Part shown: piece after piece, positions 22,500-64,000 of the stretch
How positions within the stretch are numbered: position 1 is the stretch's first letter
Layout: each line of letters starts with the position of its first letter
Source of the DNA: Crambe crambe
Taxonomy: Eukaryota > Porifera > Demospongiae > Poecilosclerida > Crambeidae
Length of the DNA stretch: 64,000 nt
Reading direction: 5' to 3'
Assembly: GCA_963924555.1 (NCBI GenBank)
Contig: OZ004593.1
Coordinates: 2,910,480 to 2,974,479 of the forward strand
Made by a program: the position numbers and the translations under genes
The notes under the pieces: generated by a model
Told to the model about the DNA's origin: nothing
Database searches by the model: none
The model's input: the letters and a program-made list of their open reading frames with translations, nothing else

Positions 22500-22621
22500 A
22501 ATCTGATAAAAGTCATGCCTGTTCTATCAGCCAGTCAGATTTAAGAGCAGTGAAGCATCAGTTTCCTGAAGTCTGACTAGCAGTTAAACTCTATACAGTG
22601 TGAAACTACACAATGCTAAAG
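22500..22621 (+). promoter_or_regulatory. R1 promoter and first exon (conserved array type)
   Basis: GATAAAAGTCATGCC is followed by TCAGCCAGTCAGATTTAAGA and the 5' UTR, then ATGCTAAAG at 22613-22621 with donor GTAAGA. The block is nearly identical upstream of R2, R4, R7 and R10. A-T-A-A-A-A-G lies about 105 bases before the ATG and may be a TATA-like element. Confidence 0.65.
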
Positions 22622-23032
22622 GTAAGACTAGCTAATACTTTAACTATTGACTAGTCAGCAAAGGCTATGTAGACTCTTTTCCTTTGTTTTGCTCTGTGTG
22701 TATTTTGGAGGAGCTCTAGCTATTTAGAAAATATCACCACAGTAGCTATCATCAGCATTTGGTCAGCCAGAATTGAAGTTTTCTCTATCCTCCTTATTGA
22801 TGGTACCTAGTGTAATTCCTTGCAAGAGTTTAAGTAGTGTGACCTGCATGGAATCGGTGTGATAATTAACAGCAATTTTCAATGATATAGCAAAATCACA
22901 TGCTCTTTATAACTAGATGTGCTGCAGCTAAGTCATTGTCATCGTCTTTGATTTTTTATTCCTTTTGAGCATCTTCCTTCCTCTTGTTTCATCTCAAGGT
23001 ATGCTACCTGTAACCAAAATAGAGAGACTGTC

Positions 23033-24001
23033 ATGTATAAATATAATACCACTACACCACTACAAGTTCACCAGATACCTCTACACCACTACCATCAGAT
23101 ACGTACAATGAGTTTGCCAGATACCACATCACCATCAGTGAATACAACACCAGCAGCTACAACACCACCAACCTCTGGCAGTGTCATCATCATAGCAGTA
23201 GTGGTTCCTCTCTCCATTATCCTCATTATTGTTATGATTGTAGATGTCCTGATCCGGTACCAACTCAGAGCCAAGGAGGACCACACAACGAACCACAGAC
23301 AAATACACAATCATCAACTTCCACAAGACAGAGGAAGCAACCTGTGTGAGGAGACATACTACTCCTCACTACACACCATACGAGGAGAAGACATTCCAGC
23401 AGATCAAGTCTACAACTGCCTTGAACGAGACACAGGTCCAGTGAGGGAAGGGACCAAGTCTTCCTGGGGGGCTACTGTGGACAAAAACAAGGCAGAGGTG
23501 GGAGCACACTCTACTGTGTCCTACAGCAAACAACCTCAAGCCTCCAAGGAAGCTGGTGTAGAGGGTATGGAAGATCCACTCTCGTATGCTCAAGTCGATG
23601 AGGATGTAAAGAAATCAATAAAGAAAAGTGAAGACATCTTTGCTACTGACCAACAAGAAGAGGCTTCTGCTTCTGCACTATATGCTCAAGTGGATGAGAA
23701 GAGAAAGAAGAAGATGATGATGAAGAATGCACAAGTGGACAAGAAAAAAAAAGACAGTCCACCCCATGAGCCAGACCAGCTGTATGCACAAGTGGAAAAG
23801 AAGAAGAAAAAGGACAGTCTACCCCCTGAGCCAGACCAGCTGTATGCTCAGGTGGGCAAGAAGAAGAGGAAGAAGAGAGAGAATGAGGTGACTGAGGAGG
23901 TACCTCCACAGGAGTCAGGGGATGTGTACTCTGTAGTTAATAAACCTAGCGCTCCTCCAGTACCTCTCAAGTCACACCTCCTCATGAAAGAACTCCAGTA
24001 A
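23033..24001 (+). CDS. R1: membrane protein with YAQV tail and no ectodomain
   Basis: An open frame of 322 codons starts at ATG 23033. It begins in a Thr/Pro-rich stalk, then has one membrane helix (IAVVVPLSIILIIVMIV, about residues 53-75) and the family tail. Tail tyrosine motifs are SYAQV, LYAQV three times and VYSVV, followed by KPSAPPVPLK. One repeat has lost its tyrosine (NAQV). The normal signal-peptide exon is damaged: at about 22955-22998 the acceptor and the first residues are missing, and the whole ectodomain is deleted. It is either a pseudogene or a membrane-anchored adaptor lacking an outside domain. AATAAA lies at about 24157 downstream. Confidence 0.6.
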   Translation: MYKYNTTTPLQVHQIPLHHYHQIRTMSLPDTTSPSVNTTPAATTPPTSGSVIIIAVVVPLSIILIIVMIVDVLIRYQLRAKEDHTTNHRQIHNHQLPQDRGSNLCEETYYSSLHTIRGEDIPADQVYNCLERDTGPVREGTKSSWGATVDKNKAEVGAHSTVSYSKQPQASKEAGVEGMEDPLSYAQVDEDVKKSIKKSEDIFATDQQEEASASALYAQVDEKRKKKMMMKNAQVDKKKKDSPPHEPDQLYAQVEKKKKKDSLPPEPDQLYAQVGKKKRKKRENEVTEEVPPQESGDVYSVVNKPSAPPVPLKSHLLMKELQ

Positions 24002-25190
24002 ATGAGCACATAGTGTGTCAATAACTTCATTACAGTTACAGTAGCCATACAGAGATAGCACTGTAAAAATGAAAGTGTGTACTGCACACTAAATTGTCCC
24101 AATAAAAACACTAAAAACAAAACAGTGTGTGTATATAAACCAGTGTATAAGTGTGCAATAAACCTGAAATTATTACAAGTGTGTAAACTTACTGCTAAAA
24201 ATATGAAAATACAGTTGCTAGCTATTGCCATCTCACCATTCCTTTCAATTTTACTGAGTAATTGTGTGTGCATTAAAAACAATTACTGTGAAATTGTACA
24301 CATTGGATAAGTGATCTCGTCCTGTTCTTAAATGGAAATTGACAAGATCACCAATCAGATTGAAGCTTTTATCCACGCACCCATAATAGCTACATATTAC
24401 AAGTAGCTACATGTACAGATTTCAGTAGAATATGCACTCTGATGTTGAATAACTGTATGACTAGCTAAAACATACATTCAGGCCATGACCTGATCCATAT
24501 GGTGCAATCATAACTGTAATCCTTCTAGCACAGATTGCAATAGCTACAACTGTTAACTAACCTCAAAAGCTATGGAAGGATTGGAATCATAGCTGTAACA
24601 GTGTTATGTAACTAAGTGACAGAAGTTCTATTTTAAAACCATGCCTGTTAAATAGCTATATTTTCTGAAATTCATCTATAGCTAGCTAAAGTCTTACAGC
24701 TATAATACGTATGTAAGGTAAGATCATAATATTACTGTAGACGCTGAAGAACAACACTGTGTGCTATTTTTCATGATAGTATTATGTATGGGGAATCAAG
24801 TGTAGGGTTACTTTATTTTACATATGTACACAGCTATACAAATAATAATTATGGTAGCTCTATAATTATTATAGCTAATAGTAGTTCTAGCTAGTTTATG
24901 AATGGATTCAACATCAAGGGATCACTACAAGACAAGTGGAAGTAGTGATGTTGGAACTGACAGCAGTAACTATCAGCTATTTCCTTATCCCGACTTTTGA
25001 AATTAACACATGGTAGCCATCAGTTTGATATGGGGTACTATGATCCTACAGTATTGTGATTACTTTGAGCTAACCATTGTGCATGACTTAAATTGCACGC
25101 CAGACTGAATGGTTTAGTATAGTTACCTCAAAGACAGTTTTCTCCATAGGCATAGAAAGTTTGTTTAAAGTGGTGCAGCCATTGCATGGA
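24002..25190. other. R1 3' flank (shared array unit)
   Basis: Non-coding. It contains sequence such as AGTAGAATATGCACTCTGATG shared with the flanks after R2, R4, R5 and R7. I see no exon. Confidence 0.6.
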
Positions 25191-25339
25191 GATGGAGAGG
25201 AGGACGCTTAATGAAAGGTATACTCTAAATAACTAGTTTATCGAAGTGCTGACCACTACCAACTATTGCATAAACTGTACTGCATTATCCACTGAATCTT
25301 TTAATTTATAAAAACATGGATGTAGGAAGTGGGGCAATG

Positions 25340-26720: not shown

Positions 26721-27479
26721 AATAGCAATTTATTCCAGAGTCCAATAAATTTGCTTATTAGTTCGTATTGATTAATTGTACAGCTACTACTGCATAGACT
26801 ATAATAGCTAGTTTTCATTTGAGGTCTCCTTCCCATCAATAGTATCACCCCTGCAAGTTTCAATTTGACTACTTTTTTTCACTCTGAATTTTAACTGCAA
26901 GGCATGACCACATAGCTAGCTATGATTATACAACCCCCTTGAGAATGCTTTGTTTATTTGTTTGTTTGTTTTTTGTTGTTTTTAATGCCTCCAGACCCAA
27001 ATGTGGTGTCACAATAATATATGACCACTTCATTTTCTCTCTTGTCACTCTGCCCCTGAGAAGTACACAGGTCTATAGGGGAGACATGTGGCTATTCGAG
27101 TTACCACTAGCACTCTTCTTGAATTAGCCCCCCCCCCAACCTTTAAAGTCAATAGCTATAGCTAAGTAACTCTTGAATTTTATACGCATAATTATGAACT
27201 GTATAGCTGGTATAATGTGGTTATACAATGTTTTAGTATCTACGTACTTTGGAAAATGTGTGTTAAACTTTACTTTTAAAATAGGAGAGTAGTGGATGAT
27301 CTGGTCTACTGCATTCTTTGAACCTTCAGTTTATGAAATAGTTGTCTGGGTAGTTACATTGACAAGATTGTCTTTCAATCCAACAGCTGTTGTCTAGATA
27401 GATACATCTAGCTACAAAGGTCTTGGCTACTTCTGAAGCAACAAATAGTCACAGTAGACTCATTCCTCAAGTATAGAGG

Positions 27480-27740
27480 CGAAGAATACTGTGTCCTACA
27501 GTAAATAACCTCAAGCCTCCAAGGAAGTGGAGGGTTAAGATTCACTCTTACACTTGTATGTTCGTTGATGAAGGCGGATATAAAGAAACCAAAAAAGAAA
27601 AGTAAATGTCTTTGCTACCTAAGAAGCTTCTCATTTTGCATTATATACATGTAGCTAGCTATGCTCAAGTGGGTGAAGTAGATGATAAGAGAGCAAAAGG
27701 AAGTCTAACAAGACCACCTGTATTTGAAGATTATTGGCAT
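27480..27740 (+). pseudogene. Relic of a receptor tail upstream of R2
   Basis: It retains CTCAAGCCTCCAAGGAAG, AAGAAACCAAAAAAGAAAAG and a later YAQVGEVDDK-like stretch, all from a diverged family tail with stops and frameshifts. It matches the relic at 21260-21415, and shorter versions lie before R3 and R6. Confidence 0.75.
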
Positions 27741-28539: not shown

Positions 28540-30421
28540 ATGCTAAAGGTAAGACTAGCTAATACTTTAAACTATTGCAAGTCACCATTTAGCTAGCTAG
28601 TCAGCAAAGGCTATGTAGACTCTTTTCAAATAAGCTAAAAGATACCTTTGTTTTGCTGTGTGTGCATATATATATATATTTAATTTTTTTTTGGGGGGGG
28701 GGGAATATAGCAAAAAATCACCATAGCATCATCAGCTGCATTATCACTGTCTTTAGGAGCACAAGTTCAAAACACTCCTTTTGAGCATCTTCCTTCCTCT
28801 TATCTCATCTCAAGGTATGCTGTACTGGTATAGAGAGATTATCATATACGTATAAGGTCCAGTGATTAGCTAAGTACAGCATATGTAGGAGCAATGAAGT
28901 TGACTCTCAATCATGAAAACATGATATGTGTCTTCTTGTCCCATGCATGCATTTACAGTTCCAGCAATCTTTCCAGAATACTATACATTTTACAATGATA
29001 ATTCAATGACAGTGAATGGATCATCTCCTACTGGAAACTGTTCCAATCATAGCTCATCTAGTAACAGACTAATAACCTGTTGGCAACCAAATTCCAGTGT
29101 TCTGTTTGATTGGCGTGTCCCCACACTCACTGAACTAGATGGTGACATGTGGGCAAGTCAATTACTCCCAATACAATCAATAAAAGGACGTGTTGATATC
29201 AGATCAACTTTTGCATTTAATGTAACAATTGAAAGGGTTGAGGTGTTGATGTTTGCTTGTTCAATAGTGAGTCGAAATATCACCCTCGAACTCTTTGGAG
29301 GACCTACGACTACGAGGTACATAACTACAAAGCATTTTGGATCTGTTACTTCCTGTGACTCCCTTGTGAGAGTGTGCATATCAGTCAATACTTCAGATTT
29401 ACAAGAGATTTTAATGAGATTTACCTCTAACAAAGACTACTGGCTGTACCTTGCTGAGGTGATCTTCTACAGTCATAATTCTACCTGTTCACCAGATGCC
29501 ATCTTTAATTCAACTACACTACTACCACCAGATACAAGTTCACCAGATACCACGTCACCAGTTGAACCATCAGTGAATGCAATCACCATAGCAGTAGTGG
29601 TTCCTCTCTCCATTATCCTCATTATTGTTATCATGATAGTTATCCTGATCCTCTCCATAGTCTGTACCACTAAACACAAGCACCAACTCAGAATCAAGGA
29701 GGACCACACAACCACCCACAGACAAACACACAATCATCAATCTCCACAAGACAGAGGACACAGCAACCTGTGTGAGGATATCGAGACAGGACAAGCATAC
29801 TACTCCTCACCACACACCATTCGAGGAGAAGACATCCCAGCAAGTCAAGTCTACAACCGCCTTGAACGAGACACAGGTCCAGTGAGGGGAGCGACCAAGT
29901 CTTCCCGGGGGGTTACTGTGGACCAAGACGAGGCAGAGGTGGGAGCATACTCTACTGTGTCCTACAGCAAACAACCTCAAGCCTCCAAGGAAGCTGGTGT
30001 AGAGGGTATGGAAGATCCACTCTTGTATGCTGAAGTCAATGAGAATGTAAAGAAACCAAAAAAGAAAAATGAAGACATCTTTGCTACTGACCAACAAGAA
30101 GAGGCTTCTGCTTCTGCATTATATGCTCAAGTGGATGAGAAGAAGAAGAAGAAGAAAATGAAGAAGAAAGAGGAAGACACTCAACCCCACAAGCCAGACC
30201 AGCTGTATGCACAAATGGTAAAGAAGAAGAAAAAGAAAAAGGACAGTCCACCCCCTGAGCTGTATGCTCAGGTGGACAAGAAGAAGAGGAAGAAGAGAGA
30301 GAAGGAAAAGACTGAGAAGGTGCCTCCAAAGGAGTCAGGGGACATGTACTCTGTAGTTAATAAACCTAGTGCTCCTCCAGTACCTCTCAAGTCACACCTG
30401 CTCATGAAAGAACTCCAGTAA
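28540..30421 (+). CDS. R2: intact ITIM-like receptor, 509 aa
   Basis: Three exons: 28540-28548 (ATGCTAAAG), 28757-28814 and 28959-30421. Exon 2 supplies a signal peptide core TLLLSIFLPLISS. An acceptor nine bases later (28766) is also in frame. The ectodomain (about residues 23-205) has six cysteines, many N-x-S/T sites and ends DYWLYLAEVIFYS, which recalls the last strand of galactose-binding-like (F5/8-type) folds. A short Thr/Pro stalk precedes the membrane helix (about 231-259). The tail has VYNRL, AYSTV, LLYAEV, LYAQV, LYAQM, LYAQV and MYSVV between lysine tracts, then KPSAPPVPLK, a class II SH3 ligand. No family name is known to me; a phosphotyrosine-signalling receptor is inferred. Four tail repeats make this the shortest intact copy. 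Confidence 0.82.
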
Positions 30422-32579: not shown

Positions 32580-33405
32580 ATGCTAAAGGTATATAAGACT
32601 AACTAGCTAATACTTTAACTATTGCAAGTCACCCCTTAGCTAGTCAGTAAAGGACTCTTTTCAAATAAGCTAAAAAGATTGCCATGTGTGCATGTTGTGG
32701 GGGAGCACTAAAATATAACTACAGCATCATCAAGAATACATAGCATTTGCTCTGCCAGCATATTTATTATTAATTTTCTGTATCCTCCTTATTGATAGTA
32801 GTAATTCCTTGCAAGACTGTGACCATGGAATCAGTACAATAGCTGATTTTCAATGGTATTGGAGTTATAGCAAAAAAGCTAGCTCTGTAATTATTAATTA
32901 TCACATGTTCTTAGTTATTATTGCTGCTCCTAAATCATTATCATTGTCTTTAATTATTAGGAGCACAAGTTCAAAGCACTCCTTTTGAGCATCTTCCTTC
33001 CTCTTATCTCATCTCAATGGTAATTCAATGACAGTGAATGGATCATCTCCTACTGGAAACTGTTCCAATAGTAGCTTATTTGGCACACTAATAACCTGTC
33101 TGCAACCAAAATCCAGTATTCTGTTTGATGAGCATGTCCCCATGTTAACTGGACTAGATGGTGACATGTGGGCAAGTCAACTACTCCTGATACAATCAAT
33201 AGGTGGACGTGTTGACATCAGATCAACTTTTGCATTTCATGTAACAATTAAAAGGGTTGAGGTGATGATATTTAACTATCCAATAGCGAGTCAAAATATT
33301 ACCCTCGAACTCTTTGGAGGACCTGCTACTATGAGGTATATAGCTACAAAGCATTTGGGATCTGTTACTTCCTGTGACTCCCTTGTGAGAGTGTGCATAT
33401 CTGAT
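32580..33405 (+). pseudogene. R3: broken receptor copy, forward arm
   Basis: First exon ATGCTAAAG is at 32580-32588 and a signal exon starts at about 32961. The signal exon runs straight into ectodomain sequence at about 33018 (CTCAATGGTAATTCAATG), removing intron 2 and the ectodomain start and bringing an immediate in-frame TAA. The ectodomain frame resumes at 33028 (MTVNGSSPTGNC) and stops near 33425. The stalk, membrane helix and tail are absent. Confidence 0.85.
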
Positions 33406-33723
33406 ATCAACACGTCCACTTATTGATTGTATTGGGAGTAATTGACTTGCCCACATGTCACCATCTAGTTCAGCGAGTGTGGGGACACGCCAATCAAACA
33501 GAACGCTGGAATTTGGTTGCCAACAGGTTATTAGTCCATCACTAGATAAGCTACTATTGGAACAGTTTCCAGTAGGAGATGATCCATTCACTGTCATTGT
33601 ATTACCATTGCGAAATGTATAGTATTCTGGAAAGATTACTGGAACTGCAAATGCATGCATGGGACAAAAAGAGAAACATTATACACACATCATGTTTACA
33701 TGATTGGGAGTCAACTTCATTAT
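33406..33723 (-). pseudogene. R3: inverted ectodomain arm (fold-back)
   Basis: The minus strand encodes VPVIFPEYYTF through GGRVDIR, the start of the ectodomain exon, including its acceptor (TTTACAG) and part of intron 2. It abuts the forward arm head-to-head at about 33405, where ATCAACACGTCC-type sequence is shared. The two arms form a large imperfect palindrome. Confidence 0.85.
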
Positions 33724-35750: not shown

Positions 35751-37863
35751 ATGCTAAAGGTACAACTAGTTAACTAATGCTTTAACTGTTGCAAGTCATC
35801 CTTAGCTAGTCAGTAAAGTCTATAATATAGACTCTTTTCAAACAAGCTGAAAAGCCATCATCAACTGCACTTAAATCATTATCACTGTCTTTAATTATTA
35901 GGAGCACAAGTTCAGTACACTCCTTTTGAGCATCTTCCTTCCTCTTATCTCATCTCAAGGTGTGCTATCAAACTCTACTGGTATAGAGAGACTGTCATGT
36001 ACGAATCATGCAAACATAATGTGTGTATAATGTTTCTCTTCTTGTCCCATGCATGCATTTACAGCTCCAGTAATCTTTCCAGAATACTATACATTTTACA
36101 ATAATAATTCAATGACAGTGAATGGATCATCTCCTACTGGAAACTGTTCCAATAGTAGCATATCTTATCATGGCAGAAACAGACTAATAACCTGTCAGCA
36201 ACCAAATTCCAATGTTCTGTTTGATGAGTGTGTCCCCACATTAACTGGACTAGATGGTGACATGTGGGCAAGTCAACTACTCCTGATACAATCAATAGGT
36301 GGACGTGTTGACATCAGATCAACTTTTGCATTTCATGTAACAATTGAAAGGGTTGAGGTGTTGCTATTTAACTGTTCAATAATTTTGAGTCGCAATATCA
36401 CCCTCGAACTCTTTGGAGGACCTAGGACTACAAGGTATATAACTACAAAGCATTTGGGATCTGTTACTTCCTGTGACTCTCTTGTGAGAGTGTGCATATC
36501 AGTCAATACTTCAGATTTACAAGAGATTTTAATGAGATTTACCTCTAACAAAGACTACTGGCTCTACCTTGCTGAGGTGATTTTCTACAGTCAAAATTCT
36601 ACCTGTTCACCAGATGCCATTTTAAATTCAACTACACCACTACCACCAGATACATGTTCACCAGATACCACTACACCACTACCATCAGATACAACAAGTT
36701 CACCAGATACCACTACACCACTACCATCAGATACAGGTTTTCCAGATACAGCGACACTAGTTGAACCATCAGTGAATGGAACACCAGCAGCTACAATACC
36801 ACCAACAAGTACAAATCCCTTTGAATCATCATCACCTGGCAATGTCACCATAGCAGTAGTGGTTCCTCTCTCCATTGTCCTCATTATTGTTATCATTGTA
36901 GTTGTCTTGATCCTCTGCATAGTCTGTACCACTAAACACAAGCACCAACTCAGAGCCAAGGAGGACCACACAACCACCCACACACAAACACACAGCCATC
37001 AACCTCCACAAGACAGAGGACACAGCAACCTGTGTGAGGAGACAGGACAAGCATACTACTCCTCACTACATGCCATTCGAGGAGAAGATGTCCCAGCAGA
37101 TCAAGTCTACAACCACCTTAAACGAGACACAGGTCCAGTGAGGGGGGGGACCAAGTCTTCCCGGGGGGTTACTGTGGACCAAAACGAGGCAGAGGTGGGA
37201 GCATACTCTACTGTGTCCTACAGCAAACAACCTCAAGCCTCCAAGGAAGCTGGTGTAGAGGGTATGGAAGATCCACTCTTGTATGCACAAGTCAATGAGA
37301 ATGTAAAGAAACCCCAAAAGAAAAGTGAAAACATCTTTGCTACTGACCAACAAGAAGAGGCTTCTGCTTCTGCATTATATGCTCAAGTGGATGAGAAGAG
37401 GAAGAAAAAGAAGAAGAAAATGAGGAAGAAAGAGGAAGACACTCCACCCCATGAGCCAGACCAGCTGTATGCACAAGTGGACAAGAAAAAGAAAGACAGT
37501 CCACCCCATGAGCCAGACCAGCTATATGCACAAGTGGATAAGAAGAAGAAAAAGGAAGACAGTCCACCACCTGAGCCAGACCAGCTACATGTATATGCAC
37601 AAGTGGAAAAGAAGAAGAAAAAGGACAGTCCACCACCTGAGCAAGACCAGCTGTATGCACAAGTGGAAAAGAAGGAAAAAAAGGACAATCCACCCCCTCA
37701 GCTGTATGCTCAGGTGGACAAGAAGAAGAGAAAGAAGAGAAAGAAAAAGAAGACTGAGGAGGTACTTCCACAGGAGTCAGGGGATGTGTACTCTGTAGTT
37801 AATAAACCTAGTGCTCCTCCAGTACCTCTCAAGTCACACCTCCTCATGGAAGAACTCCAGTAA
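35751..37863 (+). CDS. R4: intact ITIM-like receptor, 621 aa (most repeats)
   Basis: Exons 35751-35759, 35902-35959 and 36065-37863 join in phase. After the signal peptide the ectodomain (about 23-205) carries seven cysteines, one more than R2 because a F-D-W-R segment reads F-D-E-C here. The stalk is long, with repeated TTPLPSDT-like units. The membrane helix is at about 284-312 (IAVVVPLSIVLIIVIIVVVL). The tail has seven Y-A-Q-V motifs (one HVYAQV, six LYAQV), plus VYNHL, AYSTV and a final VYSVV, with lysine-rich linkers and D-S-P-P-P-E-P-D-Q spacers. It ends with KPSAPPVPLK. Signalling by SH2 proteins on phosphorylated tail tyrosines is inferred from motifs. No lesion is visible. Confidence 0.82.
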
Positions 37864-42609: not shown

Positions 42610-44490
42610 ATGAGCACATAGTGTGTCAATAATTTCATTATAGATACATGCAGTGAGTATGTAGTATAAATACTGAGTTAAACTAACAGTGTCATTATGG
42701 TCACAATACAAACTTTTTTCCCATACAGAGTTTAAGTTCTATAACTTTTTGATGAAGCAATGTTGAAAGAATAATTGTGTACATTCTAAAAAAGTTATAC
42801 AAATATAAGTGATCTTATACGTAAATCAATATAACAACCAGTTGTTTGCACTTAACATTATACTGGAAATGATGTGGTAGTTAATATTCAAGATCATCCT
42901 GTACTATTGATATTCACAAGAATCTATACTAGGTGGAATATAGGTATAATGTACGTACGTATCACTGTAAAAATGAAAGTGTGTACTGCACACTAATACA
43001 CATGCACACTAAATAAAAAAAACAGTGTGTGTAATAGGACAAAATGGCTGCAAACCAGAAATATTTCCCACTATTACAAGTGTGTAAACTCACTCCACCT
43101 GATAATACCCTCTCTCCAGTATAACTGCTAAAAATATGAAAATACAGTTGCTATTTCCATCTCACCATTCCTTTCAATTCCACTGAGTAGCTAGTTGTGT
43201 GTGCATTAAAGTCAAGTTGTGATACGTAGCTAACGAATTTGTACACGTTGGAATACTTAGCTAAGTGATCTCAGTTTTTAGTCTTGAAAGATCCCATTCT
43301 TAATTGAAAAATGAAAATCCACCTTACACTAATGGAAATGGTGTGATAAAATCACCAATCAGATTGAAGCTTTGTATCCAGCTAGCTGTACTACATGTAC
43401 AGATTTCAGTAGAGATATGCACTCTGTCTGATGTTGAACAACTGTATGACCAGCTAAAACACATTCATGCCATGCTATAATTATGGTGAAATCAAGCCCA
43501 TGATAGCAAATTGTACTCCTTCTAGCACAGATTAAGACTTTGCTACAATACTAACCTATAAAAATTAAATGCTATGGAAGGATTGAAATTATAGTGTAAT
43601 ACACACGTGTACTGTAACAGTGTTACGTATGTAACTGACAGAATTCTATTTAAAAGCACACTTTCTGAGATTTAGCTATAGCTAGCTAAGCCCTACAGCT
43701 ATTAGCTATAGCTACAATACGAAATTTGTAAACTCACAACATTACTGAAGAATAACACCAGGTGTTATTTTAGATAATAGTGACGTGCATTATATATATA
43801 TATTAATGTGTACAAATGTGGTAGCTATGGGAACTATTAGCCATCATAGTAGTTTTCTTTCTTTTTAAATGGAAACTTGTACATCCAATTCTACCAGTAG
43901 TGTCTACCAGTAGTGAATGATGGAACAACATCATGGGATCCCTACAAGACTATAGTGATAGTGACTAGCTAGCTATTAGCTTTTTTTTTTGTCCTGACTT
44001 TTAGCTTTTAAAAAGTAACACCTGGTAGCTATTTGACTGTTATTAATGTGATGATCCTGTTATGAACTTCATCACATAGATAGCTACAGTATTGCTAGTA
44101 TAGATACTTGAATGCTTGAGTCATTATATGGGTCAGGACCAAACCTTTTTCTTCAATAGCTAGTTTATTTTCTATATAGTTTTATAGTTTGTTTTTGTTG
44201 TTGTTGTTGTTGAAAGCCATGCATGTTGAAAGAATAATTGTGTACATTCTTAAAAGGTTGTAGCTACTTGTACACGTGGGATAGAGCTAAGTGATCTCAT
44301 GAATCAATAACAACCACTTAACACTATACTGGAAATGATGATTGTGGTACAGTAGCTAATATTCAAAACCATCAAGGTGATTGCACAATGGTATAGTAAT
44401 GGCTCAGACTAAGCTATCTGTTCAGATGTGCTCACAAGAGTGATATTATGTACGTAACATAATGTGACCAGAAATTTTTCCTGCCATGAC
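42610..44490. other. R5 3' flank (shared array unit)
   Basis: Non-coding and very similar to 30422-32240 after R2, which suggests that the R2 and R5 units are recent duplicates or have undergone conversion. Confidence 0.65.
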
Positions 44491-44940: not shown

Positions 44941-47292
44941 ATGCTAAAGGTAAGACTAACTACGTAGCTAATACTTTAACTAGCTATTGCAAGTCACCCC
45001 TTAGCTATAGTCAGTAAAGGTATAGACTCTTTTCAAATGAGCTAAAAGATTGCTGTGTGTGCATGTTGTGGGAGAGCACTAGCTACTTAGAAAATATAAC
45101 TAGGGTATATTCGTGTAACATATTCAATCGGCGAGCGAAGCAGTTGGTGAAAGTCATTTGTACTTTGACTTACTAAGATATTGCAGCTGCATACATAGGA
45201 GGCTGTATAATGCTTACCACAAGCACTTAGAAAGCCAAGCGCCTACAATTGCAGTTATAGCAAAAATGCTAGCACCATAATTATCACTTAATAACTAGAT
45301 ATGAATTATTGCTGCACCTAAGTCTGTCTTTTATTATTAGGACCACAAGTTCGAAGCACTCCTTTTGAGTATCTTCCTTCCTCTTATCTCATCTGAAGGT
45401 ATGCCATCAAACTCTACTGGTAACATGTAGCTATTAGGTCCAGTGATTCTAGCATGATGGTAGGAATAATGAAGTTGACTCCCAAACATGCAAACATGAT
45501 GTGTGTATAATGTTTCTCTTCTTGTCCCATGCATGCATTTACAGTTCCAGTAATCTTTCCAGAATACTATACATTTTACAATGGTAATTCAATGACAGTG
45601 AATGGATCATCTCCTACTGGAAACTGTTCCAATCATGGCTTATCTAGTAACGGACTAATAACCTGTTGGCAGCCAAATTCAAGTGTTCTGTTTGATGAGT
45701 GTGTCCCCACATTATCTGGACTAGATGGTGACATGTGGGCAAGTCAATTACTTCCGATACAATCGATTGGTGGACGTGTTGACATCAGATCAACTTTTGC
45801 ATTTAGTGTAATAATTGAAAGGGTTGAGGTGTTGCTATTTAATTGTTCAATGATGTTGAGTCAAAATATCACCCTCGAACTCTTTGGAGGACCTATGACT
45901 ACAAGGTATATAACTACAAAGCATTTGGGATCTGTTACTTCCTGTGACTCCCTTGTGAGAGTGTGCATATCAGTCAATACTTCAGATTTACAAGAGATTT
46001 TAATGAGATTTACCTCTAACAAAGACTACTGGCTGTACCTTGCTGAGGTGATCTTCTACAGTCGTAATTCTACCTGTTCACCAGACACCGTCTTTAATTT
46101 AACTATACCACTACCACCAGATACATGTTCACCAGATACCACTACACCACTACCAGATACGAGTTCACCAGATACCACATCACCACTACCACCAGATACA
46201 ACAAGTTCACCAGATACTACTGCACTACTACAACCAGGTACGAGTTCACCAGAGACCGCTACACCACTACCAAGTTCACCAAATACCACGTCACCAGTTG
46301 AATCATCAGTGAATGCAATACCAGCAGCTACAACACCACCAATCATCATAGCAGTAGTGGTTCCTCTCTCCATTGTTCTCATTATTGTTATCATTGTAGT
46401 TGTCCTGATCCTCTGCATAGTCTGTACCACTAAACACAAGCACCGACTCAGAATCAAGGAGGATCACACAACCACTCACACACAAACACACAGTCATCAA
46501 CCTCCACAAGACAGAGGACACCTCAACCTGTTCGAGGAGACAGGACAAGCATGCTACTCCTCACTACACGACATTCAAGGAGAAAACGTCCCAGCGAATC
46601 AAGTCTACAACTGCCTTGAACGAGACACAGGCCCAGTGAGAAGAGGGACCAAATCTTCATGGGAGGATCAAAATGAGGCAGATTTTAGAGCATACTCTAC
46701 TGTATCCTACAGCAAACAACCTCAAGCCTCCAAGGAAGTTGGTGTGAAGGGTATGAATGATCCACTCTTGTATGCTCTAGTTGATGAGAATGTAAAAAAG
46801 AAAAGTGAAGACATCTTTGCTACTGACCAACAAGAAGAGGCTTCTGCATTATATGCTCAAGTGAATGAGGAGAAGAAGAAGAAGAAGAAGAAGAAGAAGA
46901 AAAAGATGAAAAAAGAGGAAGAAACTCCACCCCATGAGCCAGACCAGCTGTATACACAAGTGGAAAAGAAGAAGAAAAAGGACAGTCCACCCCCTGAGCA
47001 AGATCAGCTGTATGCACAAGTGGAAAAGAAGAAGAAAAAGAAAAGGGACAGTCCACCCCCTGAGCCAGACCAGCTGTATGCACAAGTGGAAAAGAAGAAA
47101 AAGGACAGTGCACCCCCTGAGCAAGACCAGCTGTATGCGCAAGTGGACAAGAAGAATAGGAAGAAGAGAGAGAAAGAAGAGACTGAGGAGGTACCTCCAC
47201 AGGAGTCAGGGGACATGTACTCTGTAGTTAATAAACCTAGTGCTCCTCCAGTACCTCTCAAGTCACACCTCCTCATGAAAGAACTCCAGTGA
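44941..47292 (+). CDS. R6: intact ITIM-like receptor, 604 aa (longest stalk)
   Basis: Exons 44941-44949, 45341-45398 and 45545-47292 join in phase. The signal exon reads EALLLSIFLPLISSE in its core. The ectodomain (about 23-205) has the seven-cysteine form (F-D-E-C). The stalk is the longest of the family, about 80 residues of repeated SSPDTT and PLPPDT units, probably O-glycosylated. The membrane helix is at about 289-316. The tail has LLYALV, LYAQV (x4) and LYTQV, then MYSVV and the SH3 ligand KPSAPPVPLK. AYSTV and VYNCL lie nearer the membrane. A lysine run of 11 follows the second motif. No lesion is visible. Intron 2 encodes an in-frame ATG (45529) that is not the start. Confidence 0.82.
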
Positions 47293-48600: not shown

Positions 48601-51112
48601 TACGTAGTGTAGTCTCTAATCAGGACACTTTTTTCCAGTCACATTTATTGAGGAGTTTTTCTGCATGTAAATAAAGCTGCTGTGTTCAGAACTTACGTTT
48701 GAGATTATACCTACAACATGAAAAATCAAACCTATAGCCATGCACACATTATAGGAGATATACAGGAAAGAGTAGGGGCCATGGCCATCCCTGCCACCCC
48801 ACTTCATATGATATGCTACAAAATTTAGTGGTCCTTGAGATATCTAGCTAATTGAGATACAAGAAGTGAAGCTGTACGTATGCATGGAAAACAGTGCAAG
48901 TTGGTAGTGGTCATCACTTCAATAAACTTGTTTCTTCAGAGCATGCCTTTTATACAGATGAAGCCCATACAATAGCTAGCTGCCCTTAGGTAGCTTAATT
49001 GCAAAGGACGGAACTGAAAGAATGTACGTACAATAATAGTGCCCTCCCTAGTGGTTCACTTACTATGTGCAGCCACCCTTCATCCTTCATCCCTACCCTT
49101 GTTTCCTTAGCTACATTCTTGAGCAATGGTCATCCCTACATCTTTTTTTTTCTTTTCATGGAAATGTTTTTTCCCTCTGGAATATAAGTGATCTCATAGT
49201 AGCTAATGAAGACCTCTAGTTATAGCTACCAGTTCTGTTTCACACTTGTAACATCAATCATATCATAGCTACTTGTACCCGGGTCCAAAATGTATCATAC
49301 TTTCACTCAAGTACAGTTGGAGGGCTTTGCATACATGTATATATAAATCGAGCATGTATAAAGTCTTCAAGACTGAGTTGAATAAAAGAATACAGTAGCT
49401 AACATCGTTGATCCCTTGACCCTGCTAATTGTTTTCCCATTAGCTATAACATTCCATATTATTCTCATTATGCTCAAATTTTTGCTCATGATTCTACTCC
49501 AGAAGAGGTACAATATGTAGTTTGTCACTATGACAGTGACTGTTCAAATGGAGTGGCCATTCCTTACCACACTGCAAAAAAAGAAATGTTATTAATTTTT
49601 GTTAAACATACCTGTTAGGTAGCTAAGACTAAAATAACCCAACAGTTTGTTAGCTATAGCTATTCACCAAAAATATAGTGTCATTTTGATGATTAACCTA
49701 ACTAGCTAGCTTGCTAAGTTTTTTAAAATCACAATTTCGTTTTGCAGTGCACTAAGTGCTTCTTCTTGTAAGGCTAACAAGCTATAACCATCACAGCAAT
49801 AATTATTTCAGCTATGACATTTTTCTGCTAGCTGCATTTTTTTCTGGTATAGCTACTAGCTGTGGTTATTATAAAGTTCTAAACGTCATAATTAATACTT
49901 ATGCTATTTTGGGTACTTATGTAGCTACAGCAGAATCAATAAGACAACAAGAAATAAAAAAGAAAGGTGTGTCTGAAGACATGAAGTCATAGTGACATAG
50001 GCTTGTCCTACCAAGGTTGATTCTATTCTCAGACTCCCACTCAAGTCCCTATTATTCTTTTCAACTGTATTCATACACAAATGAAAAAATCTGGCATTAT
50101 ACACACAGCTTAATATTAAGTAAATACAATAGCCAGTTCTTTCACTGATCAAAAGTACAGAATCTAATTGGCATGTGTATTCTATCATTATACAGTATAA
50201 GTAGAAAAAATATTGACAGCACATTGTATGGAACACGGGGTGTGTATAGAAGCTAGTTACATCATATAGCTAAATCTTGTTGTTGTTTTTTTTGTGTTTT
50301 TTTGCATTTTGTTTTTTTGGAAGAAACTAGAGAAAAGTCTGCAGTGACTTCATTAACCAATTTGTGTGATTCTTTCAAAGTTTATGCACATCTCCTGACA
50401 TCCCATCAGCCATATAATCTTTCCTTAATTAAGATTCTGCCTAAGTACTACCTTCCTTATTGAAGCTGATTATCTGCCTGGTCTGACCTCTCAAAATTCA
50501 TAAGTAGCTATGTAATTATCTGGCCTAACCTATTAGAATTTTTTCTGACGAATCAACTAGTTTTACAGAACACTGCACCCTTGCATGACCATGCAGTAAT
50601 AATCTATTGTACAATATGTTTTGTCAGTTCCTGAGCTGCTTTTTCGAAATAAAGCTATTTTAAGAGGTTCCTTTTTATGTCCTTGAATAGCTACATCTTT
50701 AGCTATAGCTGAACATATCTACCAATTTATCTATTGTTATAGTAGTATGTGATAAGCAGTCCTACGTATATGTAGACCAATCAGAGCACTCTGGTTAATG
50801 GTACATCATATAAGCACCCCAGAGCCCCAGGCTATAACGTAGCAACATTGATATCCTGCTGAATCAAAAATTTGAGTATTACCATCATCCTGACTACTCA
50901 CATACCTTTCTTTACAGATCAGCAATGGAGATGAAATCCTGTTGCAGCTGGATTGCATTTCTACCATGGACACATGAAGAAGGTGACTGCATGAGCATGA
51001 AGGCTGGAATTAAACTCATGAAAGGAACCACTGCACCTGTTATTAGCCAAAGCAAGCAATCATATTGACCAATCATAGAACATTCTATAATTAACTATAC
51101 AGTTCGCAAAAT
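48601..51112. other. Non-coding spacer between R6 and R7
   Basis: No supported gene. A 78-codon frame at 49756-49992 with a hydrophobic centre has no recognisable family and no clear start. R7 upstream blocks begin at about 50930. Confidence 0.45.
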
Positions 51113-52331
51113 CTAATAAAAGTCATGCCTGTTCTATCAGCCAGTTAGATTTAAGAGTAGTGAAGCATCAGTTTCCTGAAGTCTGACTAGCAGTTAAACT
51201 CTATACGGTGTGAAACTACACAATGCTAAAGGTATCATAAGACTAGCTAATATTTTAACTATTGCAAGTCACCCATAGCTAGTCAGTAAAGGCTATGTAG
51301 ACTCTTTTCAAATAAGCTGAAAATATAGCTACTACGAGGTATAACTACAAAGCATTTGGGATCTGTTATTTCCTGTGACTCCCTAGCTTGTGAGAGTGTG
51401 CATATCAGTCAATACTTCAGATTTATGAGGGATTTTACTGGCTGTACCTTGCTGAGGTGTCGTAATTCTACCTGTTCACCAGAAGCCATCTTTAATTCAA
51501 CTACGCTACTACCACCAGATATGAGTTCACCACCTGAGCATACTGCTGGTCTGGCTCAGGGGGTGGAGTGTCTTTCTTTTTCTTGTTCACTTGTGCATAC
51601 AGCTGGTCTGGCTCGTTGGGTTCCACTCGAGCATATAATGCAGAAACAGAAGCCTCTTCTTGTTGGTCAGTAGCAAAGATGTCCTCACTTTTCTTTTTTG
51701 GTTTCTTTACATCCTCTCGACTTGAGCATACAAGAGTGGATCTTCACTGTAGGACACAGTAGAGTATGCTCCCACCTCTGCCTTGTTTTCGTCCACAGTA
51801 GCCCCCCAGGAAGACTTGGTCCCTGGACCTGTGTCTCGTTCAAGGCGGTTGTAGACTTGATCTGCTGGGACGTCTTCTCCTCGAATGGTGTGTAGTGAGG
51901 AGTAGTATGTCTCCTCACACAGGTTGCTGTGTCCTCTGTCTTGTGGAAGTTGATGATTGTGTGTTTGTCTGTGGGTCGTTGTGTGGTCCTCCTTGGCTCT
52001 GAGTTGGTGCCGGATCAGGACAACTACAATCATAACAATAATGTGGACAATGGAGAGAGGAACCACTACTGCTATGGTGACATTGCCAGAGGTTGGTGGT
52101 GTTGTAGCTGCTGGTGTTGTCTTCACTGATTGTTCAACTGGTGACATGGTATCTGGCAAACTCGTTGTAACTGGTGGTAGTGGTGTAGTGGTATATCTGG
52201 AAAAAAAGAAGAGAGAGAAAGAGAAGACTGAGGAGGTACCTCCACAGGAGGGACATGTACTCTGTAGTTAATAAACCTAGTGCTCCTCCAGTACCTCTCA
52301 AGTCACACCTCCTCATGAAAGAGCTCCAGTG
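51113..52331 (+). pseudogene. R7: receptor pseudogene with inverted middle
   Basis: Promoter (TAATAAAAGTCATGCC at about 51115) and first exon ATGCTAAAG (51223-51231) are normal. No signal exon follows. A short ectodomain piece (about 51335-51525) leads into inverted sequence: 52195 down to about 51526 encodes, on the minus strand, stalk, membrane helix (TIAVVVPLSIVHIIVMIVVV) and tail to YAQV. The plus strand then resumes at about 52196 with the tail end (PPVPLK region) and stop near 52331. So about 670 bases of the gene centre are flipped in place. Confidence 0.88.
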
Positions 52332-57144: not shown

Positions 57145-57175
<31 letters not shown>

Positions 57176-57184: not shown

Positions 57185-57349
57185 ACACAGAAAAATTTTT
57201 TTAGATATTCATGCTGCTCTGTGATGTGATTTTTAAAGTGACTGTTCGCTTTGTAATATTTTTATTTTTTATTTAGATTAGCTATACATTATGATTGTAT
57301 TTTTTTTTCTACTTGGTATGTAACATTAAATAAATTATACATACAATTT

Positions 57350-58460: not shown

Positions 58461-58469
58461 TGGCTAATA

Positions 58470-59545: not shown

Positions 59546-60899
59546 ATGATAAAGGTAAGACTAATACTTTAGGCTATTGCAGGTCACCCCTTAAGGCTAT
59601 GTACTAAGAAAATGTAAACCACCACAGTATTATCGAAAATGCATAGCACTTGCTCTGCCAGCATAATTATTTATAAATTATCCTATAAGAGTTTAAGTAT
59701 AGTGTGCCTGCATGGAATTTTCAATGATAGATAGCTCCATAATTGGCTAATTACCACATGCTCTTTATAAGCAAAATAGCTAGAATCTGATGTGATTCAT
59801 ATCAAGGATTATTATTATTGCTATGCCTAAGTCATTGCCCCGTGCAAGGAGTTAAGCAATCATTTGGGGTTACGTGGCAGAAATTTTTGTAATAACTACT
59901 AAAATACACGCTTATTCTGCTAGCATATTTCATACTTACATACAATGTTTTCTTGAAGCCATAATGCCTAGTTATCACTGTCTTTAATTTTTAGGAGTAC
60001 ACGTTCAAAACACTCCTTTTGAGCATCTTCCTTCCTCTTATCTCATTTCAAGGTATGCTATCAAACTCTAATGGTATAGATTGTATAGGTCCAGTGATTC
60101 GAGTATGAATAGTGTTGACTCCAGCATGATGTGTGTATAATGTTTCTCTTCTTGTCCCATGCATGCATTTACAGTTCCAGTAATCTTTCCAGAATACTAT
60201 ACATTTCGCAATGGTAATTCAATGACAGTGAATGGATCATCTCCTACTGGAAACTGTTCCAACAGTAGCATATCTGACAAAGGCAGACTATATAATCAAT
60301 AATTTTGAGTCAAAATATCACCCTCAAACTCTTTGGAGGACCTACAACTACAAGGTATATAACTACAAAGCATTTGGGATCTGTTACTTCCTGTGACTCC
60401 CTTGTGAGAGTGTGCATATCAGTCAATACTTCAGATTTACAAGAGATTTTAATGAGATTTACCTCTAACAAAGACTACTGGCTGTACTTTGCTGAGATGA
60501 TCTTCTACAGTCATAATTCTACCTGTTCACCAGACACCATCTTTAATACAAATGCATTATTACCACCAGATACCACTACACCACTACCACCAGATACAAG
60601 TTCACCAGATACCACTACATCTGTCATCATCATCGCCATTGTCACAGCTCTACTGGCCACAGTCATCTTTGTGGTGGTGCTGGTTGTCATATGCAAGTGC
60701 CACCCAAAGTTCAGACCTGGAGGGACTGAGACGGGAGCCTCAGCAGGAGGGGAGGGGCAGGTATGAAGTGATGGGTGGGGATGAGGGAGGTGTGGTTGTG
60801 AGAGGTGGCAATGATCCCATGTACATGGAGGTTGGTGGAGAAGAGAAAGGCCACACCTTTGAACTGAAGGAGAATGATGCATATGGCACTCTCTCCTAG
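59546..60899 (+). pseudogene. R8: broken receptor with a different tail
   Basis: Exon 1 is ATGATAAAG (59546-59554). Exon 2 (59995-60052) keeps only the first of the two acceptors, because ACAAG has become ACACG. Exon 3 starts at 60175. A deletion of about 200 bases in the ectodomain joins CAGACTATA to ATCAATAA and makes a stop near 60302. The frame reopens at about 60305 with the ectodomain end and stalk. The membrane helix differs from other copies (IAIVTALLATVIFVVVLVVI) and is followed by CKCHPKFRPGG. The tail, one frame away after a G-rich run near 60750, reads RYEVM, PMYMEV and DAYGTL to the stop at 60899. It has no lysine repeats and no PPVPLK. Confidence 0.8.
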
Positions 60900-61200: not shown

Positions 61201-62246
61201 ATGGTAAAACAAGGGTGTGGATATGTAAAGCTTCAATTAATCTGGTTGATCTTATCATACCATTTCCATTAGTGTAAAGTGCATTTTCATTTTTCGATTA
61301 AGAATGGGATCTTTCAAGATTAAAAACTGAAATCCCAATCTGTATTACTTGTCTTTAATGCACACACGATTACTCAGTTGGAATGATGAGATAAAAATAG
61401 CAAGCTATGTAAATCTGGATTCTCCTCTCTTTTTCATTTTTTTTTCAGCAGTTGTACTGCGTATTATCAGGTGGAGTGAGCTTACACAGTGGGAAAATTA
61501 ATTTCTGCCATATTATGTTATGTACATAATATATTCCACCTAGCTAGTACATTCTTGTGAATATCTATAGCACATCTGAACAGATCGTTTCAAAACTGAG
61601 CATTACTGTCCAGCATAGTTTTAAGTGCAAACTGGATGTTATTGATTTATGAGATCACATTTATCCCATGTGTACATGCAGTAAAACCTTAAGTTTTTAG
61701 AATGTACACAATTTCTCAACATGGCTTTGAAAAAATATACAACTATAGAAAAGAAACGTTATAAGACTATAATAATTATTGTGAAAAAAGGTTTGTGTAT
61801 GTGCATAGTCCTGCCCATTGTAATGGATTGATGGGTTAGTTTGTGCAATCATTTTCATTAATTAATTACTTTTGTGCTGTGTGTGCTTTTTGTTGAGACA
61901 GGCTTTTTCTTGTTTCTAGATTTGTCATTTGTGCATTATGTAATGGGATAGTGGTTATTGGTTTTGTGCATGTCTTTTCCTGTTTTACTTGGTTGTGCGT
62001 GTTTTTTCTTGTTTTAGTCCTTTTTGTATAAATAGGAGCTTAGTTGAACTGGATAGTTAGTTGAGAATTTGTGCTCTAGTCAGTGTCGTTTGTTATTCTA
62101 TCAATTAAAATTTAATATACTTGCAAACTCCCGCTCCGGGTCCTCTACACCCATAATGACACTGTTAGTTTAACTCAAGCATTCAAGTATAGCTATACTC
62201 ACTACATGTATCTGTAATGAAGTCACTGACACAATATGTGCTCATT
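61201..62246 (-). other. R9 3' flank, inverted
   Basis: This is the reverse complement of the flank seen after R2, R4 and R5 (for example CCATTAGTGTAAAGTGCATT and TCATTATGG read in reverse). It shows that R9 lies on the minus strand. A solo LTR interrupts it. Confidence 0.75.
61819..62149. mobile_element. Solo LTR, 331 bp, with 5-bp CCCAT duplication
   Basis: The insert begins TGTAATGG and ends CTCTACA (TG...CA) and is flanked by CCCAT on both sides (61814-61818 and 62150-62154). Inside are a TATA box (TATAAATA, 62027-62034) and an ATTAAA-type signal near 62105. Comparison with uninterrupted flanks after R2 and R4 shows exactly where it inserted. No internal retroelement genes remain. Confidence 0.9.
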
Positions 62247-62740
62247 TACTGGAGTTCTTCCATCTAGAGGAGGTGTGACTTGAGAGGTACTGGAGGAGCA
62301 CTAGGTTATTAACTACTGAGTACACGTCCCCTGATTCTTGTAGAGGCATCTTCTCTGCAGTCTTCTCATTATATGCTCGAGTTGATGAGAAGAGAAAGAA
62401 GATGATGATGATGATGATGAAGAAAGAGGAAGACACTCCACCCCATGAGTCAGACCAGCTGTATGCACAAGTGGACAAGAAAAAGAACAAAGCAGAAGAC
62501 AGTCCACCCCCTGAGCTAGACCAGCTGTATGCTCAAGTGGACAAGAAGAAGAGGAAGAACAGAAGCAGATGCCTCTTCTTGTTGATCAGTAGCAAATAAT
62601 AATCATGTTCTTTTTTGGTTTCTTTACATTCTCATCGACTTGAGCATACAAGAGTGGATCTTCCATACCCTCTATACCAGCTTCCTTGGAGGCTTGAGAT
62701 AGGGTATGCTCCCACCTCTCCCTTGTTTTGGTCCACACTA
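62247..62740 (-). pseudogene. R9: tail-only receptor fragment with flipped centre
   Basis: The minus strand carries the tail end (stop at 62247-62249, PPVPLKSH region) up to about 62366. 62367-62563 is on the plus strand and encodes the repeat block LYARVDEK, LYAQV, LYAQV with lysine runs. 62564-62740 is again minus-strand tail (SKQPQ-like region reversed). The ectodomain and membrane helix are absent. The repeat block has therefore been inverted inside an already inverted tail. Confidence 0.85.
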
Positions 62741-62939
62741 GCCACCCGGATGGAAAAACTTCCTTTTCCTTCTTGTTTGTTTATCATGTACTCCACCCAC
62801 TTGAACATATAACTAATGGAAAGGAGAAGCTTCTTCTTCTTAATATTTTTATGCTATGCATGACACATCTGTATTGCACTGTACTTTGGGTTATAATTTC
62901 AAGGTCACATACTGCATACTAACCGTTACTGTTCCTACG

Positions 62940-63360
62940 CCAGTGTCATAGGCATAGGAAGCTCTTTTAAAGTGGGACAGCCATTACATGGAGAGGGGAA
63001 CACTTTATCTCTTCAACATGTATAAAAGGCATGCTCTGAAGAAACAAGTTTATTGAAGTGATGACCACTACCAACTATTGCACATTGTTTTCCATGCATA
63101 CAGCTTCACTTCTGGTACCTCAATTAACAAGATTATCTCAATAATAACCTGGACCACTGAATTATACTTAGAACATTGGTATAGGAAGCGGTTTGAGGTC
63201 TACTTCCCATTAATAGCACCCTGCAAGTGAATTTCATTGGCTGATCTTAGGTACATAGCTTAAGCTTCAGTTTAAGTTCCAGTACCTTTTTCTACATATC
63301 TATGGATTAATTCTATTGAAAAATGTTGGCTCATAATAGAGGAACAATGGCTAACCACTT
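62940..63360. pseudogene. TRAF7-flank relic (fourth copy)
   Basis: It shares GAAGTGATGACCACTACCAA with the duplicated blocks near 25240, 39090, 48910 (inverted) and 59030, and GTGAATTTCATTGGCTGATC with the TRAF7 3' flank. No TRAF7 exon survives. Confidence 0.6.
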
Positions 63361-63810
63361 TTTTCACTCTGAATTTTAAATACAAGGTATGACCACATAG
63401 CTACACTGTAGCCAAGAATGTTCTAGCTTTTAATAGTTGTTTGTTTGTTTATTTGTTTGTTTTTGTTCTGGTTACTTAGGCTATATATACAACATGATTG
63501 ATATTTTTACTTAATCTCAATGAACTTTAAAAAAAAAACAACAAGCAACTTGATCCTCCCTAGCTATAGTTATTCTTATACCTTCATTATACTGTTGAAA
63601 GTATCAGCCATGGAGATGAAATCCTATTGAAGCTGGATGACACACAACACCATGGACACATGAAGGTGACTGCATGAGCATGATGGCTGGAATTAAACTC
63701 ATGAAAGGAACCACTGCACCTGTTATTTTCCAAAACAAGCAATCATAATTATGACATGTTTACAATCATAACATTTCATGTAACTATACAGTTTTATATT
63801 GACAGCAGAG
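63361..63810. other. R10 upstream region
   Basis: Non-coding. Array upstream blocks (GGAGATGAAATCCTATTGAA near 63613) are present. Confidence 0.55.
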
Positions 63811-63930
63811 TCTAATAAAAGTCATGCCCATTCTATCAGCCAGTCAGATTAATGAGCAGTATAGTATCAGTTTCCTGAAGTCTGATTAGAAGTTAAACTC
63901 TATACAGTGTGAAACTACGCAATGCTAAAG
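63811..63930 (+). CDS. R10: promoter and first exon, continues beyond window
   Basis: TCTAATAAAAGTCATGCCC is followed by the conserved 5' UTR and ATGCTAAAG at 63922-63930 with donor GTAAGA. Only three codons (M-L-K) are in the window. By analogy with R2, R4 and R6 the signal exon should lie a few hundred bases beyond the right edge. Whether this copy is intact cannot be judged. Confidence 0.6.
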
Positions 63931-64000
63931 GTAAGAGACTAGCTAATACTTAACTATTGCAAGTCACCCCTTAGCTACTCAGTAATGGCTATTGTAGACT

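Follow-up and report, generated by a model that had tools for sequence, protein, structure and literature searches.

Receptor-like genes in a tandem array on C16

In the present study, a stretch of 64,000 nucleotides from the sponge Crambe crambe (bases 2910480-2974479 of contig OZ004593.1, designated C16; hereafter, the window) was analysed, with a searched genome of 143 Mb in 119 contigs. The window holds part of a tandem array of receptor-like genes with tyrosine-rich tails, and the family to which they belong probably serves as a germline repertoire of receptors that recognise self/non-self cells or microbes. An earlier interpretation made from the letters of the window (the sequence-only reading) had placed about ten copies of one gene design at 22.5-64 kb. 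The array is real; however, tblastn and open reading frame (ORF) listing over C16:2.89-3.02 Mb showed that it starts at approximately 21.2 kb and ends at approximately 92 kb in window coordinates, i.e. approximately 28 kb beyond the window. The window holds only a minor share of the family, which is spread over the genome.

The long-tail gene has three exons: the first, of 9 bp, encodes Met-Leu-Lys (MLK), the second, of 58 bp, the signal peptide, and the third, which is large, the ectodomain, a Thr/Pro stalk, a membrane helix and the tail. In R4 (copies are numbered R1 to R10 in the window), exon 1 is ATGCTAAAG, the 58-bp signal exon is followed by a phase-1 intron, and the remainder lies in one exon, with the ectodomain at 36067-36636, then the stalk, a membrane helix placed by eye at approximately 36850-36927, and the tail up to the stop codon. 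In R4 and R6, all three exons and their GT/AG sites were read directly; a pattern search recovered the model in R2 and its first two exons in R3. Both the gene design and the receptor-like architecture of the sequence-only reading are supported. Between 20 and 64 kb, there are seven MLK exons with a GT donor (R1, R2, R3, R4, R6, R7 and R10). Among 12 copies tested by pattern, eight have an upstream MLK exon, and the pattern was unmatched at R5, R8 and the 69.4-kb and 83.9-kb copies. In two relatives from other genomes (P0110 and P0114), the signal exon seems, when read by eye, to end with SQ-G ahead of the intron. The introns, the signal exon and the genome-wide spread favour a host gene over a bacterial or viral origin. 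The single design proposed earlier is to be corrected by a second gene form in the array, with a short tail on its own membrane-plus-tail exon.

Three copies in the window are intact (R2, R4 and R6, with long open exons at 28925-30421, 36031-37863 and 45511-47292 in the ORF listing) and at least five are broken, as had been counted before; intact copies beside copies broken in different ways make up the birth-and-death pattern that had been suspected. R1 is without an ectodomain, R3 is truncated and adjoins an inverted piece, and R5 has a frameshift in the ectodomain, an insert of approximately 285 bp with inverted ends and a second frameshift near the stop codon. The tail of R7 is inverted, ectodomain residues ~38-103 of R8 are gone, and R9, mostly an inverted tail relic, may be part of the R8 unit. 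The R4 and R6 ectodomains match at E 1e-109 (tblastn), far beyond chance, and the ectodomain and tail of R4, used as tblastn queries, matched further pieces at 23.2, 27.5, 33.0, 33.3 (minus strand), 40.7-42.6, 51.3-52.3, 60.2 and 62.2-62.8 kb. Repeat finding at 22.5-64 kb yielded eight families (D1-D4 and D6-D9) of 4-5 copies each, with 61-94% identity to the reference copy. Beyond the window end, R10 continues with an ectodomain (64341-64907) and a short-tail exon within the ORF 65077-65412. Past R10, five more ectodomain copies lie before ~92 kb, with long tails at 74.6 kb and 89.4 kb (the latter with an early stop in its tail) and short tails at 69.4, 78.3 and 83.9 kb.

Tails, ectodomain fold and divergence of the family

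The long tails carry 6-16 YxxI/L/V motifs in 17 genes. R2, R4, R6 and R12 have 6, 11, 10 and 16 of them, respectively, compared with shuffled means of 1.3-2.1. The YAQV units are the product of a coding minisatellite with a 57-66-bp unit, such that the number of motifs can shift through the gain or loss of repeats. Each of the same four tails ends with YSVV or YSVI and then PxxPxK, which by its consensus we take to be a class II SH3 ligand. Short tails have 2-3 tyrosines in the four tested, and the short-tail exon has 97 matches genome-wide. The strict immunoreceptor tyrosine-based inhibitory motif (ITIM), [SIVL]xYxx[ILV], occurs once in each of the four long tails tested and in two of the four short tails. 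The best tyrosine-phosphatase match, among the best 150 of 601 candidates, is located at C18:6539084-6539980 on the minus strand, where two SH2 matches directly precede it, an SH2-SH2-phosphatase order as in an SHP phosphatase. Arrays of SH2 matches were also observed at C5:1.468-1.522 Mb (often in pairs ~0.4 kb apart), C9:1.49-1.61 Mb and C12:1.64-1.84 Mb, and matches to protein tyrosine phosphatases form large arrays on C12, C9 and C13 (same best 150). The C5 pairs look as if tandem-SH2 genes had expanded too, and the SH2 arrays are possible partners of the multi-tyrosine tails.

The ectodomain was modelled with AlphaFold2 from an alignment of 106 of 120 fetched homologues, and the model (predicted local distance difference test score 82) is a beta-sandwich jelly roll of the discoidin/galactose-binding type. 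Its top VIA-align match is the DS-like domain of DDR1, at 12% identity, and further structural matches comprise, among others, a fucose-binding lectin and numerous CBM32/CBM6 domains that bind sugars. Among 13 ectodomains, Pfam showed no F5/8-type C or DDR-type match, with Myf5 (E 0.042, meaningless) as the sole family at E up to 1; the best NCBIfam value for 13 ectodomains was E 0.032, also meaningless, and no PDB sequence matched the ectodomain profile below E 1.9. Membership of a known family by sequence was rejected, with nothing above the cut-off or convincing in these three databases. The earlier statement that no named family has this layout therefore stands for the sequence but not for the predicted fold, which is a familiar one. 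TMEM154 (PF15102) was also rejected, as it reached 22.3 bits at best against a cut-off of 30.3, over the stalk, membrane helix and adjoining tail. A kinase receptor was rejected as well: four long exons scanned had no kinase domain at E up to 1, and the exons end in the motif tail. No paper describing the family turned up among the titles and abstract openings searched in the open-licence PMC literature, and a description may exist elsewhere.

The ectodomain has at least 150 matches genome-wide (151 and 150 with two queries; best 150 of 184 candidates), and approximately 110 of the 151 listed cover most of the domain. The sites are on C16 (2.93-3.00 and 5.38-6.07 Mb), C21, C20, C13, C12, C1 and C18. 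With the long-tail query, all 92 candidates were scored and the 83 matches obtained were confined to C16 and C20; long-tail open frames of at least 490 residues number 26 in two C16 clusters plus one on C20. At C21:0.88-0.95 Mb (L018 and L019), several ectodomains are paired ~0.9 kb apart ahead of one short-tail segment, suggesting that some genes may carry two domains. In a large protein database, the long-exon query retrieved 174 proteins and the ectodomain profile 916, and the best 120 of each were compared. Relative to the fetched loci, seven of the 120 listed relatives are >90% identical, 11 are at 60-90% and 102 are at 60% or less. An ectodomain tree with 147 tips has 57 that stem from the C. 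crambe genome and P0001-P0018; of these, 54 make up a single clade (support 0.91) that contains nothing else, and the three left outside are two C13 copies and a copy from C16:6.01 Mb. The other 90 tips form five groups of 9-48 (support 0.95-1.0 in four and 0.37 in one) plus one single tip. The expansions are thus largely lineage-specific.

Ectodomain and tail were compared in 17 of the 26 genes of the two C16 clusters, A and B (five from A and 12 from B), which lie ~2.8 Mb apart. The median synonymous divergence (dS) between clusters was 0.635 for the ectodomain versus 0.173 for the membrane-plus-proximal tail, and the within-cluster values for the tail were 0.175 (A) and 0.123 (B). Identity between A (here with one C20 copy) and B was 43-68% over most of the ectodomain and stalk, with two conserved blocks at 83 and 90%, leapt to 93% at the membrane helix, was 79-93% through the coding end (one window without a value) and was 65-44% past the stop codon. 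Since so low a tail dS is beyond the reach of selection at the protein level, it points to gene conversion, and we read this as a signalling module that evolves in concert between the two clusters; ectodomains exchanged onto a common tail would look alike. The family offers a clean natural case of one part of an exon that is concerted across clusters, with the rest diverging.

Selection was assessed in 36 of 42 full-length ectodomains, as ratios of non-synonymous to synonymous divergence (dN/dS). Set A included two C20 copies, and set C consisted of C21 and two C16 copies. The pairwise medians for the ectodomain were 0.76 (A, 55 pairs), 0.86 (B, 105) and 0.80 (C, 45), and for the tail 0.63 (A) and 0.50 (B); the tree-based overall values for the ectodomain were 0.76 (A), 0.95 (B) and 0.84 (C). 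At p <0.1, zero, seven and three positive sites and seven, 12 and four negative sites were obtained in A, B and C, respectively. Per-site replacement counts in B and C correlated with rho 0.57-0.60, and silent counts with rho 0.26-0.32. The fastest segment, model residues ~149-156, had an omega of ~4 (p 0.0004, with overlapping windows uncorrected and gene conversion ignored), and strands and loops showed no consistent rate difference. A strong claim of positive selection was rejected, given no positive site in A and uncorrected best windows in B and C. The purifying selection that the sequence-only reading had asked about gave a mixed answer, with dN/dS of ~0.5-0.6 in the tails and medians of 0.76-0.86 in the ectodomains, along with invariant core sites and a few fast segments. 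These data fit an ectodomain with a fixed core of invariant sites and free or favoured change elsewhere.

An apparent difference in gene content was also observed. Fourteen relatives (P0002, P0004 and P0007-P0018, among the best 120 of 174) share one contig of 270639 bases. P0014, P0002 and P0017 are 97-99.5% identical to the neighbouring genes at C16:5.864, 5.870 and 5.877 Mb, respectively, and, when compared with the fetched long-tail loci, the other 11 reach 69-93% at best. In the nine of these 11 with an excisable ectodomain, the best ectodomain match is 70-91%, and two tails reach 96-98% with one gene. P0001, P0005 and P0006, on another contig, are 100% identical to the genome, as is the window fragment P0003. 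An alternative haplotype carrying a different receptor set would best explain the contig of 14 receptors.

Coordinates and surroundings of the array

Features of the array within the window (positions in window coordinates)
Feature	Position	Strand	Basis
Tail relic YSNSKQPQSSKEVEG	21188..21442	+	ORF listing; resemblance to R4 tail YSTVSYSKQPQASKEAGVEG by eye
R1: MLK exon (22613) and tail, ectodomain lost	22497..24001	+	repeat family D8; tblastn tail 23186-23998; ORF 22952-24001
Lone tail fragment	27467..27646	+	tblastn, 48% identity, E 8e-6
R2 exon 1 (MLK)	28540..28548	+	pattern
R2 exon 2, signal peptide	28757..28814	+	pattern; start inferred from 58-bp length in R4 and R6
R2 exon 3, intact: ectodomain, stalk, membrane helix, long tail	28959..30421	+	ORF, tblastn, pattern
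R3: exons 1-2 and truncated ectodomain	32580..33423	+	tblastn, pattern
Inverted ectodomain fragment adjoining R3	33226..33678	-	ORF, inverted repeats I1-I4, tblastn
R4 exon 1 (MLK)	35751..35759	+	direct reading, pattern
R4 exon 2, signal peptide EHKFSTLLLSIFLPLISSQ	35902..35959	+	direct reading, pattern
R4 exon 3, intact	36065..37863	+	ORF, direct reading, tblastn
Coding minisatellite, 57-66-bp unit, R4 YAQV repeats	37416..37702	+	
R5, broken: frameshifts, insert ~42030-42320	40551..42610	+	tblastn, pattern; start inferred from 58-bp exon 2
R6 exon 1 (MLK)	44941..44949	+	direct reading, pattern
R6 exon 2, signal peptide DHKFEALLLSIFLPLISSE	45341..45398	+	direct reading
R6 exon 3, intact	45545..47292	+	ORF, tblastn, pattern, direct reading
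Coding minisatellite, R6 tail	46926..47156	+	
R7: MLK exon (51223), ectodomain fragment 51335-51505, tail end 52252-52329	51107..52329	+	ORF, repeats, tblastn
R8: internally deleted ectodomain, stalk, short-tail type membrane segment (ICKCHPKF)	60114..60763	+	repeats, tblastn, ORF
R9: rearranged long-tail relic, mostly inverted	62245..62763	- (piece 62354-62566 on +)	tblastn
R10 exon 1	63922..63930	+	tblastn, ORF, pattern

Four units have an inverted long tail beside a plus-strand ectodomain, and in three of them a short-tail exon is also present. The inverted tails lie on the minus strand at 51531-52267 (the tail body of R7, limits approximate) and 62245-62763 in the window and at 65963-66482 and 71514-72204 beyond it; a single inversion spread by tandem duplication likely lies behind all four. 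The element of approximately 285 bp that interrupts the R5 tail, with the inverted ends GGCGGATCCAG / CTGGATCCGCC, looks like a short DNA transposon.

Directly beyond the array, from ~95 kb, the minus strand carries a very large gene containing Ig and fn3 exons (L014, C16:3004480-3014479, and L015); of five exons scanned, three scored above the Pfam cut-off, one just under it, and one was without a match. On the left flank, WD40-type coding fragments were recognised by eye at 7152-9815 (minus strand) and 17314-19994 (plus strand), which we take to be WDR24-like and TRAF7-like. Other minisatellites in the window are located at 2063-2929 (41/207 bp), 10283-10753 (107 bp), 16195-16493 (48 bp) and 19308-19602 (34/101 bp). 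Overlapping fragments at 57338-58456 resemble, by eye, the reverse-transcriptase region of a decayed retroelement, and two pieces scanned had no Pfam match. An Rfam scan across the window gave no matches. Elsewhere in the genome, the pattern Cys-Gly-Ala/Ser-Ser-Tyr-Ala-Phe, presumably the silicatein active site, was observed seven times at C15:0.866-0.885 Mb, each time inside a Peptidase_C1 match; an eighth match on C9 has Cys in place of Ser, and the reversed control pattern matched once. Silicatein motifs of this kind identify the host as a demosponge.

The proposed recognition role, its alternatives and known systems

Differing outer parts with alike inner tails are the pattern expected of molecules that recognise self/non-self or microbes, and herein we propose that recognition is the probable role of this family. 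Each long-tail type I receptor would present one discoidin-fold domain on a Thr/Pro-rich stalk. Upon ligand contact, Src-type kinases would phosphorylate the tail tyrosines (YAQV, YSVV, YMEV and similar), and the phosphotyrosines might dock SH2 proteins, e.g. the SHP-type phosphatase of this genome, with the C-terminal PxxPxK peptide docking an SH3 protein. Long tails, tuned by the minisatellite to 6-16 motifs, and short tails might give outputs that differ in strength or sign. The set of ectodomains would change through tandem duplication, decay and rearrangement, and gene conversion would keep the membrane-plus-tail module alike in both long-tail clusters.

Several observations weigh against this proposal. 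First, each long tail has a single strict-ITIM tyrosine, and the immunoreceptor tyrosine-based activation motif (ITAM), YxxL/I/V x6-12 YxxL/I/V, was found in none of eight tails tested, so ITAM logic was rejected. Second, both C-terminal features are kept in only 31 of 102 relatives, some of which are cut off or have the other tail type. Third, the overall ectodomain dN/dS is below one, cluster A has no positive site, and the best window is uncorrected. Fourth, the haplotype reading draws on protein records, and their contig of 14 receptors could come from another individual or a very close species.

Within the recognition proposal, we judge the split between microbes and self to be about even. 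In the first special case, which is possible and put forward tentatively, carbohydrate-binding receptors would sense microbes by binding bacterial or symbiont glycans, and the repertoire would track microbes and not kin. Such a repertoire is what a filter-feeding, symbiont-bearing animal would require, and the CBM32/CBM6 and fucose-binding lectin matches are consistent with it; however, the top structural match is DDR1 and not a lectin, and the fold alone is no proof of sugar binding. In the second, itself a somewhat doubtful candidate, polymorphic haplotypes would decide fusion or rejection through homophilic or receptor-ligand matching, in the manner of Hydractinia Alr and the Botryllus fuhc genes. 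The ectodomains that change faster than the tails, the shared tyrosine tails and a gene content that differs in a haplotype-like way agree with this, as does the convergence of other allorecognition loci on ITIM, hemITAM (half-ITAM) and Y-x-x-I/L/V tails described in PMC12065747, although the number of loci is far above the need of a single fusibility locus. It is conceivable, with less than even confidence, that haplotype-variable discoidin-fold receptors in several clusters, with a gene-converted and minisatellite-tuned module, form the self/non-self system of the sponge; if true, allorecognition through YxxI/L/V tails evolved once more near the root of the animals, on a further ectodomain that is unrelated to the others.

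An expansion, for structural reasons, of DDR-like adhesion or matrix receptors for collagen or spongin is unlikely. The nearest fold and the SH3- and SH2-type motifs in the tails would suit such receptors, but birth-and-death, haplotype-like differences and lineage-specific expansions are unusual for them, and the four long exons scanned have no kinase domain. That the family is mostly a set of decaying, functionless duplicates is highly improbable: the broken copies in the window and ectodomain dN/dS medians of 0.76-0.86 stand against 26 C16 and one C20 long-tail open frames, tail constraint (dN/dS ~0.5-0.6), invariant core residues, conserved splice sites and conservation in other clades.

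The proposed recognition receptors share a predicted DS-like fold with DDR1 and DDR2, but without a kinase domain in the exons scanned or a match at the sequence level, and, unlike the DDRs, they form tandem arrays with one such domain per long-tail receptor. Sponge aggregation factors, which are candidate self-recognition genes, are secreted proteoglycan components, and no aggregation-factor domain turned up in the Pfam scans of the receptor proteins. We know of no established receptor for self/non-self discrimination in sponges. Sponges tell self from non-self grafts (PMC5450542), and, according to a recent review (PMC12065747), no conservation is seen among the candidates for allorecognition proteins in sponges, cnidarians and ascidians. 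Similar to Alr of Hydractinia, the receptors are clustered in an early-branching animal, and Alr candidates are described with ITIM/ITAM-type motifs; unlike the Ig-like ectodomains of Alr, the sponge ectodomain is discoidin-like, is encoded in the same exon as the tail and is joined to a minisatellite tail. Mammalian KIR/LILR and SLAM-type receptors are clustered and variable in copy number, with varied tail length, YAQL/YAQV-like motifs and Ig ectodomains. The sponge genes resemble the KIR, LILR, Alr and FcoR class in their tandem cluster and in the one strict ITIM per long tail tested, but differ from it in having no ITAM in the eight tails tested. FcoR and fester at fuhc of Botryllus are also a receptor family with long tails carrying ITIM, hemITAM and Y-x-x-I/L/V, but they have Ig and sushi ectodomains, belong to a different phylum and have ligands also encoded at fuhc (PMC12065747). 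Pfam scans of four long exons and 13 ectodomains gave no Ig-superfamily or C-type lectin match, and the sponge genes are therefore not members of the KIR, LILR, Alr and FcoR families. Understood as recognition receptors, they would be a repertoire that works like the paired and allorecognition receptors of other animals, yet outside those families. Systems from cnidarians to mammals converge on ITIM/ITAM signalling (PMC12065747), and the sponge genome, which combines an SHP-type phosphatase with a large receptor family whose ectodomains vary and whose tyrosine tail is shared, makes this question of convergence directly testable.

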